42,041 nucleotides of DNA, taken from Candidatus Roizmanbacteria bacterium GW2011_GWC2_34_23 (GTDB taxonomy: Bacteria; Patescibacteriota; Microgenomatia; UBA1406; GWC2-37-13). The first letter of the stretch is position 1, and each line of letters opens with the position of its first letter. Positions 23,557 through 26,803 of this stretch are shown piece after piece. Location: contig LBPR01000008.1 of the NCBI GenBank assembly GCA_000990305.1, positions 1 through 42,041 of the forward strand, given 5' to 3'. Under the pieces are notes generated by a model, which did not search any database, was not told where the DNA came from, and worked only from the letters and a program-made list of their open reading frames with translations. Both the position numbers and the translations under genes were made by a program.

Positions 23557-23838
23557 ATGGTTCAAGCTTTTACTATCGATTCTAATAGTTTTCCTGCTGC
23601 CAAAGTGACAAGTATTGGTCAAATTGTCAGTCTCGCTCTTCCTTTAGCAATGACCGGAGCCGGACTGATTTTTTTAGTAATTACCCTTAAAGCCGCTTTT
23701 GATATTTTGACTCATGGTGACAATCCTGACGCTTTAAAAAAGGCCTATTCATCGATTGCAAACGCGGTTTTAGGTTTAATTATCGTCGTTGGTAGTTATC
23801 TAGTTATTAAATTATTAGGAGTTATTTTACCAAAATGA
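23557..23838 (+). CDS. T4SS-pilin/VirB2-like small membrane protein
   Basis: Two TMs separated by GDNPDALKKAYSSIANAVLG loop. Confidence 0.7.
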   Translation: MVQAFTIDSNSFPAAKVTSIGQIVSLALPLAMTGAGLIFLVITLKAAFDILTHGDNPDALKKAYSSIANAVLGLIIVVGSYLVIKLLGVILPK

Positions 23839-24224
23839 AATACCTTGCGGAAGTTGATCCTGAAATTCAAAAACTATTCGGTGATATTTCTCCACCTGCC
23901 GCTATGAATGTTGGTGGTGGTGATCCTGTTCAGGGATTGGGTAAATTTATTGGCTTTGGTATTCAAATGTTTATACTGGTTGCCGGTTTGTTTATGCTGG
24001 TTTATCTTTTGTGGGGTGCCTTTGATTGGATTTCTTCAAGCGGAGAGAAAGAAAAAATCACCAAAGCCCAAAATAAAATCACTAATGCTTTAATAGGGAT
24101 AGTTTTAGTTTTTGTCGTTTTAGTAGTCTTTAACTTACTCGCAGGAAATATCTTAGGGATCATTGTAGTAGATCCAAATAATCCAAATGGCTTTCAAATA
24201 AAATTACCAACCTTGGGAGAATAA
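23835..24224 (+). CDS. T4SS-pilin/VirB2-like small membrane protein
   Basis: Two TMs separated by SSGEKEKITKAQNKITNALIGI loop; ATGA overlap with preceding gene. Confidence 0.75.
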   Translation: MKYLAEVDPEIQKLFGDISPPAAMNVGGGDPVQGLGKFIGFGIQMFILVAGLFMLVYLLWGAFDWISSSGEKEKITKAQNKITNALIGIVLVFVVLVVFNLLAGNILGIIVVDPNNPNGFQIKLPTLGE

Positions 24225-24227
24225 AAA

Positions 24228-24255
24228 AATACCCCACCCGTCGGCAGGGATATTT
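24228..24255. terminator. Terminator-like hairpin between convergent genes
   Basis: AAAATACCCC...GCAGGGATATTTT. Confidence 0.5.
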
Positions 24256-24283: not shown

Positions 24284-25012
24284 TTAATCTACGCTCTCAT
24301 TTATACTTTTTATTTTAATTGCTTGACAACACATAAATCCATCTTTATAGCCACGAAGTGTATTTGAAGGTTGAGAACTTGCTTCAATATAATTATATTG
24401 ACCATTGGCTGATTTTATTGAACTACAAGGTCCACCGCCAGTCTTATACCAATCACCTTTACATTCAACCTTTGGCGTTAAAGATCCAAATATAAGACAT
24501 ACTTTATTATTATTTTTACCTTTAAAATAACTTGAAACTAAACCTGTGACATTCTGTATCGTAAAATTATAATTCTTAGCCCAATCTTTTTGCAAACTTC
24601 CATTATCATAATTTTTTTTACTATACCATTCTGCTTTTCCTTTATAACCGTCAATTTTAATACTATTGCAATCTTGACCATATTTATCCTTAAGTTTTGT
24701 GCTATCTTGTGTTTTTGCAATACAGCAAGCGTAACCAGACTTTTCTAATTTGTCGTCTTGACGATAATCAAAAGGTGTATTATAATTTTTTGCTAATCTT
24801 CTACAAGTAGCACTAGCACCTTCTAGCCTATTACCACTACCTATCGGCATAATTCTAGCATTAGTGCATTTACCAGCCGCTTCCGTATCTGTGGTTGCTT
24901 TCATTTTATTAATAAAAATGACGGAAAGAAGTAAAAAAATCGCCGCTAACGATATAAAAAATAATTTAAAACCGTCCCGTTTATAGAAGCTCAATTTTTT
25001 AGTCTTTTTCAT
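24284..25012 (-). CDS. Membrane-anchored extracytoplasmic Cys-rich protein, internal duplication
   Basis: N-terminal TM FFISLAAIFLLLSVIFI; two GY/FxCCxA motifs (GYACCIA, GFMCCQA); start at MKKTKK. Confidence 0.65.
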   Translation of the reverse strand: MKKTKKLSFYKRDGFKLFFISLAAIFLLLSVIFINKMKATTDTEAAGKCTNARIMPIGSGNRLEGASATCRRLAKNYNTPFDYRQDDKLEKSGYACCIAKTQDSTKLKDKYGQDCNSIKIDGYKGKAEWYSKKNYDNGSLQKDWAKNYNFTIQNVTGLVSSYFKGKNNNKVCLIFGSLTPKVECKGDWYKTGGGPCSSIKSANGQYNYIEASSQPSNTLRGYKDGFMCCQAIKIKSINESVD

Positions 25013-25055
25013 AAAAATATAATTATTAACTATCAATGATTAATAACTAAATATC

Positions 25056-25085
25056 ATTTTAATTGGGGGGGGGAGCGGTTGTCAA
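25056..25085 (-). promoter_or_regulatory. Predicted promoter with poly-C9 tract in the spacer
   Basis: TTGACA (25085-25080), 18-nt spacer containing G9 on + strand (25065-25073), TAAAAT (25061-25056). Confidence 0.6.
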
Positions 25086-25111: not shown

Positions 25112-26803
25112 TTATTCAATCTTATAAATCTTACTTCCTTGAAGGACATAAATAAAATCCTTATAAACCACAAAGTCTGTGGCAGTAGACAAAATTTTTG
25201 AATTCACCTGTTCCTGATAGTCTCCGTTTTTATTCATCACATAAATTATTCCCTTCTTTTTGTCCCAACCGTACACTTTTTCCAAATCGCGAGTGGTAAA
25301 GATTTTATTTATGTTGGTGCTTCCATCAGGTAGATCAATTTTGAATCCGTCACGTAAACCTGAAGTATATTTAAACATAACTGCATCGCCGGCCAAATAA
25401 ACCGAGCCATCAATGCTCAAAGAATTAACTTGAGACAAATCAATTGATTGACCGGATTGAAAATAAGAATTTTTACTGCCAAATCCTGATTCCGCAACCA
25501 TATACTTCCAAATTTCATCTTTTCCTTGATCTAACAAATAAATATTACTGTTAAAAACGACTAGATCTATAATCTTTCCCCAATCTTTGTCATTTTCAAT
25601 TATTTTTTTTGTTTTTCCATCAATAATTTGGTAAATGCCGGCATCTTCAACATAAAAATATTTTTTTTCTTCAGACAAAGCAACAAGGGTAGATTTTTTT
25701 ATTTCATTAGATTGATTTTTATCTAAAGATTTCTTGTCCAGTGAAAATTCATACAGAACTCCTCTTGTCTTATCACTAACTAGAAGACGGTCGTCGTTAA
25801 GATATAATTTGTTGCCCTTTGCGTTCTTATCATCAACGGTCAAATCAAAAAATTCCGTATATTTTTTTTCCTCCTTTTTGAGTATCTTATTCTCAGTATC
25901 TATAATTAGCTTATCCAATCCACTTAACTCATAACTCTTAACACCTACCTCCTGCTTTAACTTATTAGCTTTCTCTTTACTATCCGCGATTAAACTTAGG
26001 GCACTTGACATATTTAAGAATGATACTTCCTCTGCTTGATTTAATTTTTGACTGATAAGATCGTGAGTTAAGTTAATTTTTTTTTGGTTATTCTCGCTTG
26101 ATCGACGCGCATAACCTAAACCAACACTCCAAAATAGAATTATTCCCAAAATAAAAACCGTGATGAATGTTAAAATTTTTTGCTGGCCAAATCGTTGATA
26201 GAAATCCTTTAAACTAAAATTATTAACTCTTGTTATTTCTTCTTCCATTTTTTTTAGTTTTAAAAATAAAGCCGCCGTCCCCTGGTCATCGAGCTCAAGT
26301 AACTCTGGAGTTATTTCATCAATAATATCTGAGATTGGTCTGTGGTCAAATTTTTGATTCAATCCAGATTCCTCTCCCAACAGTTTCATAAATCTATTAA
26401 AAGTAAAGACAAAAACATCTTCTTCTTTGATATGTCCTGAGGCAGTTTCGTCCCGTTCAATAAGAAGGGCCAGTTTATTATTGCGCCGAATATAGACTTT
26501 ACCCTGATTAACTGTCTTCAAATAAAAAATGTTTCCTTTTAAATAACCGGCCGAAAGAGAAAACCCTGACGGCAGATTCTTTTCTTTAATAATGTTTGAA
26601 ATAAAGACATCAAATTGTTGTAAGTTTTCAATCTTAATAACGCTAATTTTTTCGCGAATGTAGGCAGTTAATTCTCGACCGCGATCCGGAGTAATACCCG
26701 TCTCAATTTCAACCGTTAAAAATAAATTATTTTCATCAACGAAGCCGGAAAAACCATCAGGTTTTTCACGACCTAAATAGAAGCCAATTTCTTGCTTAAA
26801 CAT
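25112..26803 (-). CDS. Putative PPM/PP2C-like (degenerate) domain + TM + beta-propeller-like extracytoplasmic domain
   Basis: Domain layout inferred from sequence: alpha/beta N-terminus, one TM (ILTFITVFILGIILFWSVGLGY), repeated short beta-like segments after. Confidence 0.45.
   Translation of the reverse strand: MFKQEIGFYLGREKPDGFSGFVDENNLFLTVEIETGITPDRGRELTAYIREKISVIKIENLQQFDVFISNIIKEKNLPSGFSLSAGYLKGNIFYLKTVNQGKVYIRRNNKLALLIERDETASGHIKEEDVFVFTFNRFMKLLGEESGLNQKFDHRPISDIIDEITPELLELDDQGTAALFLKLKKMEEEITRVNNFSLKDFYQRFGQQKILTFITVFILGIILFWSVGLGYARRSSENNQKKINLTHDLISQKLNQAEEVSFLNMSSALSLIADSKEKANKLKQEVGVKSYELSGLDKLIIDTENKILKKEEKKYTEFFDLTVDDKNAKGNKLYLNDDRLLVSDKTRGVLYEFSLDKKSLDKNQSNEIKKSTLVALSEEKKYFYVEDAGIYQIIDGKTKKIIENDKDWGKIIDLVVFNSNIYLLDQGKDEIWKYMVAESGFGSKNSYFQSGQSIDLSQVNSLSIDGSVYLAGDAVMFKYTSGLRDGFKIDLPDGSTNINKIFTTRDLEKVYGWDKKKGIIYVMNKNGDYQEQVNSKILSTATDFVVYKDFIYVLQGSKIYKIE

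Follow-up and report, generated by a model that had tools for sequence, protein, structure and literature searches.

A poly-C promoter spacer ahead of a cysteine-rich protein gene in Candidatus Roizmanbacteria: a candidate transcriptional contingency locus

Could a run of nine cytosines, lying between the -35 and -10 hexamers of a gene for a membrane-anchored protein, act as a switch of transcription in a member of the Candidate Phyla Radiation (CPR)? The question is raised by a window of 42,041 nucleotides (positions 1 to 42,041 of the forward strand of contig LBPR01000008.1) from Candidatus Roizmanbacteria bacterium GW2011_GWC2_34_23, a genome of 707,712 bases in 29 contigs that is 80% complete, for which an initial annotation had proposed a phase-variable promoter. 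If the proposal is correct, a tiny and presumably host-dependent bacterium varies its surface by a bet-hedging device known from mucosal pathogens, and this variation is possibly directed against bacterial hosts, phages or predators.

Layout and conservation of the promoter

The sequence and coordinates given for the promoter are accurate: on the minus strand, positions 25056 to 25085 hold a perfect -35 hexamer, an 18-nt spacer containing C9 and a -10 hexamer with five of six consensus matches. The gene downstream does encode a membrane-anchored, Cys-rich protein, with an N-terminal anchor and 10 cysteines, and starts with an ATG at 25012, leaving a gap of 43 nt from the end of the -10. Anchor and composition together suggest that the protein is exposed at the surface. 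The features of the locus are the following.

25112-26803, minus strand: gene for a conserved 563-aa membrane protein, upstream and co-directional, used as synteny anchor (open reading frame; present in 55 of 57 relatives)
25080-25085, minus strand: -35 hexamer TTGACA (sequence and consensus scan), kept in orthologous intergenic regions
25062-25079, minus strand: 18-nt promoter spacer ACCGCTCCCCCCCCCAAT, of the same length in G014 and in the majority of polyC-free relatives; 17 nt in G013 and G015
25074-25079, minus strand: ACCGCT between the -35 and C9 (sequence)
25065-25073, minus strand: C9 tract within the spacer (sequence); C7 (G013), C8 (G015) and CTCTC5 (G014) in orthologues
25062-25064, minus strand: AAT between C9 and the -10 (sequence)
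25056-25061, minus strand: -10 hexamer TAAAAT, five of six consensus matches; G014 has TAGAAT, equally spaced from the -35
25013-25049, minus strand: predicted 5' untranslated leader, placed from the -10 position, without a clear Shine-Dalgarno site
24284-25012, minus strand: gene for the 242-aa Cys-rich protein with N-terminal membrane anchor (open reading frame; family by N-terminal profile and pairwise comparison)
24232-24249, minus strand: terminator-like hairpin plus T-run 3' of the Cys-rich gene, a weak candidate given that shuffled sequences average 1.5 such sites

Relatives of the 563-aa gene that bear a name belong to Candidatus Roizmanbacteria, in agreement with the CPR lineage that had been assigned, and the sequence beyond this gene was compared at 20 loci. 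Our genome forms with G013, G014, G002 and G015 a clade with 100/100 support, in which four of the five species have a C-rich spacer and G002 has a different gene at the locus. A homopolymer between recognizable -35 and -10 hexamers is thus present as described and recurs in orthologous promoters, three of which, out of four, hold an uninterrupted run of 7-9 C. The tract differs between species, which bears on a comparison that the initial annotation had advocated: C9 in a spacer of 18 nt in our genome; an interrupted CTCTC5, also with 18 nt, in G014; C7 plus T with 17 nt in G013; and C8 in G015, where the spacer measures 17 nt to TAAACT or 15 nt to TATAAA and the -35 shares bases with the stop codon of the gene before it. 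The G013 contig breaks off 57 nt past the C run; in that genome the Cys-rich gene is preceded by another promoter, free of poly-C. Over its first 54 nt, the promoter of G014 has 7 differences from ours, 2 of them inside the run, and the 25 nt directly upstream of it show no clear likeness. To judge from these hexamers and their conservation, the locus is a genuine sigma-70-type promoter of the Cys-rich protein gene; the C-rich spacer is a real, conserved feature of it and a candidate transcriptional contingency locus.

Outside the clade, members of the same gene family in G004, G009, G017, G019 and G007 are preceded by TTGACA and TANNNT, set 18 nt apart by a pyrimidine-rich spacer that has no C run, and G003, also devoid of a C run, has its best -10 at 17 nt. 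The promoter shared with these polyC-free relatives probably goes back to a common ancestor, and the spacer would have become C-rich later, in the clade of our genome.

Position and persistence of the C run

The initial annotation had called the run unusual, which is true of its place but not of its length. C9/G9 occurs once in the 707,712 bases and is the longest G/C run there; the counts over the whole genome (38 runs of 6, 9 of 7, 3 of 8 and 1 of 9) form a geometric tail, from which one C9 somewhere in the genome is expected, so that run length by itself was rejected as evidence. Its location within a promoter spacer is another matter. In 20 genomes of the genus there are 48 G/C runs of at least 8, all but 4 within open frames of at least 258 nt, and this promoter, in our genome and in G015, accounts for two of the four exceptions. 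A search of 83 genomes of the order with the pattern TTGACA-N1-10-C7-N0-9-TANNNT returned 7 matches, and the reversed pattern, used as control, returned none; three of the 7 are this promoter in our genome, G013 and G015, and the other four comprise an intergenic promoter in G078, a CsoR-type palindrome in G027 and two sites inside long open reading frames. It is the position of C9, not its length, that exceeds chance.

The match in G078 (L150, G078:C9:129110-129138), from another genus of the family, is a second intergenic C7-spacer promoter, TTGACA-17-TATAAT, and the gene that follows it encodes a small protein containing Gly, Arg and Cys. In G013, C10 and C9 also occur within open frames (L169, G013:C39:2191-2200; L167, L170), and these runs are candidates for either frameshift phase variation or assembly errors. 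The exact 16-mer TTGACAACCGCTCCCC has 6 matches in viral contigs, a number judged near chance level; it lies within promoter-like sequence of IMG/VR contigs (L143, L144, L146), two of which share one record.

Persistence of the run is equally informative. At fourfold sites of the 563-aa gene, identity among the clade species is 36-53% and C is kept as C in 14-43%; with synonymous sites this close to saturation, plain neutral inheritance of a 7-9 C run in three species is unlikely, and the run would be maintained by either selection or slippage-driven homogenization. An assembly artefact is disfavoured, as the promoter, each time with a C run of its own, recurs in independent assemblies, of which two are WY2.bin75 and CandRoiz1; the exact length in any single assembly is uncertain. 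Control G runs, another comparison advocated at the outset, are provided between species by the G7 tract of the csoR promoter, which does not vary where that of the surface promoter does. Given its constancy across ten species, instability or poor assembly is not a general property of tracts of comparable length in these genomes.

Possible roles of the C-rich spacer

The closest precedents come from Neisseria: opc and fetA, with poly-C, and porA. In Haemophilus, the hif promoter has a TA dinucleotide repeat, not a homopolymer, which corrects the parallel drawn by the initial annotation. The likeness to fetA (frpB) lies in a poly-C tract that separates the -35 and -10 of a gene for a surface protein, at our locus a presumed one; fetA runs of C10-C14 vary between strains and in culture with a measured change of expression (PMC5320596), whereas for our C9 both would be predictions. 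The promoters of opc (poly-cytidine) and porA (poly-G spacer) share with ours the architecture and the proposed spacing mechanism, in which slippage in the spacer alters the -35/-10 distance and hence transcription, as in fetA (PMC5320596; PMC5084427). Switching of opc and porA is experimentally proven according to the studies cited in these two papers (Sarkari 1994; van der Ende 1995), whereas at our promoter we infer it.

We tentatively consider a transcriptional contingency locus to be the most likely role of the C-rich spacer. In one clade of Ca. Roizmanbacteria, an 18-nt spacer would have been turned into a C-rich slippage tract; slipped-strand errors in C7-C9 would make it 1-2 nt longer or shorter, the promoter would shift between near-optimal (17-18) and poor spacing, and cells would differ in the amount of surface protein made. 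Slippage within a population, its effect on transcription and a role in host contact are all presumed here. The claim of a phase-variable promoter is borne out insofar as the promoter is real and conserved, the C run is common to sister species at differing lengths and the gene is diversifying. Against it stand a spacing of 17-18 nt in four species, one interrupted run, a co-directional upstream gene with no terminator and, in G013, the contig end near the tract together with a Cys-rich gene behind another promoter. The spacings of 18, 18, 17 and 17 nt are all compatible with activity and include no clear OFF allele, and slippage would be suppressed by the interruption in G014. In meningococci, tracts of at least 8 mostly vary within single colonies (PMC5084427), a threshold of about 8 that C9 in our genome and C8 in G015 reach and that C7 in G013 and CTCTC5 in G014 do not; C9 and the C7-C8 tracts of the sister species are also shorter than the known fetA tracts. 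Phase variation at this poly-C promoter is therefore plausible but unproven, and we hold it with some reserve.

Mismatch repair may have a bearing on tract stability. Of the 20 genus genomes, 19 gave no match to MutS domain V, a count limited by the incompleteness of these genomes, and if canonical MutS is missing, slippage may go unrepaired. The match in our genome is an atypical protein of 1175 aa that has the ATPase module of domain V twice and none of the other MutS domains (L171:203-3730, G000:C15). In the literature searched (preprints and most subscription journals lay outside its scope), nothing was found on homopolymer phase variation in Patescibacteria or on a promoter homopolymer in CPR, and the sole slippage case in CPR is a coding repeat: in a Gracilibacterium, slippage-based variation was proposed for a hypervariable 9-mer repeat that alters the protein sequence (PMC6851277). 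The two cases are alike as proposed slippage variation in a CPR bacterium, and differ as a coding 9-mer repeat and a promoter homopolymer. Ours might be the first promoter-type phase-variable locus in the CPR, kept in a clade without canonical MutS, a suggestion to be taken slightly more cautiously than the role itself. The locus offers a specific and cheap test of phase variation, by C counts in existing metagenome reads.

A serious if somewhat less probable alternative is a constitutive promoter of the ordinary kind, in which a pyrimidine-rich spacer turned into poly-C by drift in this clade, selection acting on its length (17-18) only and the run, which would have no regulatory role, persisting by slippage-driven homogenization. 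That total spacing is conserved though the run differs fits this explanation well, as do the mostly 18-nt pyrimidine-rich spacers retained by polyC-free relatives, the two substitutions that interrupt the run of G014 at constant length and the place of C9 within the run-length tail of the genome. It accounts less readily for uninterrupted runs of 7-9 C in three species despite near-saturated divergence, and for the fact that two of the four long runs outside open reading frames in the genus sit here. Unlikely, by comparison, is a role of the C-rich spacer as an invariable binding site or DNA-shape determinant that serves a different regulator or a variant sigma factor: ACCGCT beside the tract is identical in our genome, G013 and G014, and polyC-free relatives are alike in spacer sequence as well as length, but in G015 TTTGTT stands where those three have ACCGCT, the tract is not constant in length and no further motif in common was found.

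Finally, it is most improbable that the C tract is the operator of a CsoR/RcnR/FrmR-type (DUF156) repressor, the Cys-rich protein being induced by a metal or thiol-reactive signal: our genome, G013, G014 and G015 each encode a PF02583 protein as cognate repressor and carry a G7 tract in their csoR promoters, and G027 has a polyC7 palindrome in the promoter spacer ahead of its csoR gene, but the genus operator, ATCCT-G7-AGGAT, is invariant in tract length and flanks and its exact site occurs once per genome, ahead of csoR, whereas the tract of the surface promoters varies from 5 to 9, within sequences that have no inverted repeat and 6-7 mismatches of 17, or more, to that operator. The PF02583 search, the csoR upstream regions and the operator pattern thus disfavour this role. 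Known CsoR/RcnR operators are G/C tracts with flanking inverted repeats (PMC3902906); the uninterrupted tract at a promoter is the point of likeness, and the repeats that such operators need are absent at our C9 and present in the genus csoR operator. In ten genus genomes the csoR promoter reads TTGACA-N-TATCCTGGGGGGGAGGAT, with exactly G7 and the ATCCT/AGGAT repeat in each, the operator-like site lying at the -10 (G000:C6:18344-18358, L177, in our genome; L178-L180, L182-L186 and L189 in others). The spacer TACCCCCCCTGGGGTA of G027 (L149, G027:C157:41402-41430), ahead of a CsoR-family-like gene, is likely a CsoR operator.

The Cys-rich gene family and its neighbourhood

The Cys-rich protein had no family match in Pfam or NCBIfam, and a search of genome contigs with the protein found no homologue. 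A profile of its N-terminus detected family members in most genomes of the genus, with several copies in some. The first ~45 residues are conserved across the family (up to 87% identity between species), and ectodomains are often unalignable: between our genome and G014, the Cys-rich proteins share 28-32% identity and the neighbouring genes 77%. By these comparisons the gene is a fast-diversifying one, with a conserved anchor and a hypervariable ectodomain. The AlphaFold model of the ectodomain is poor (pLDDT 45). Across the family (L081-L095, L109, L110), the ectodomains that follow the anchor of ~45 residues (MKxDKICFxKTLxYLVLL...) are unrelated; L094 and L095 have in common another ectodomain, which on visual inspection resembles trypsin, and G019 (L085, G019:C38) has near-identical tandem repeats in its Cys-rich ectodomain (SCKQQGGNWYNTKSYSTCDDLGKAYNGTFTTATSPSDASYYSGYNCC).

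The stop codon of the 563-aa gene lies 26 nt ahead of the -35, and no terminator was found between the two; read-through from this co-directional gene could therefore mask switching. On the other side, two T4SS pilin-like genes (window 23557-24224) are oriented convergently to the Cys-rich gene. Several relatives lack the latter, and in them the pilin gene directly follows the 563-aa gene, pointing to the Cys-rich gene as an optional insert at the locus. G013 (L086, G013:C11) and G007 (L078, G007:C13) are more than 90% identical over the promoter and leader that precede the Cys-rich gene, far above the ~49% identity of the neighbouring gene between our genome, a close relative of G013, and G007, which suggests that promoter-plus-gene cassettes are exchanged. 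In G013, a 52-bp repeat is found at contig ends, directly upstream of both the Cys-rich gene and csoR (L180).
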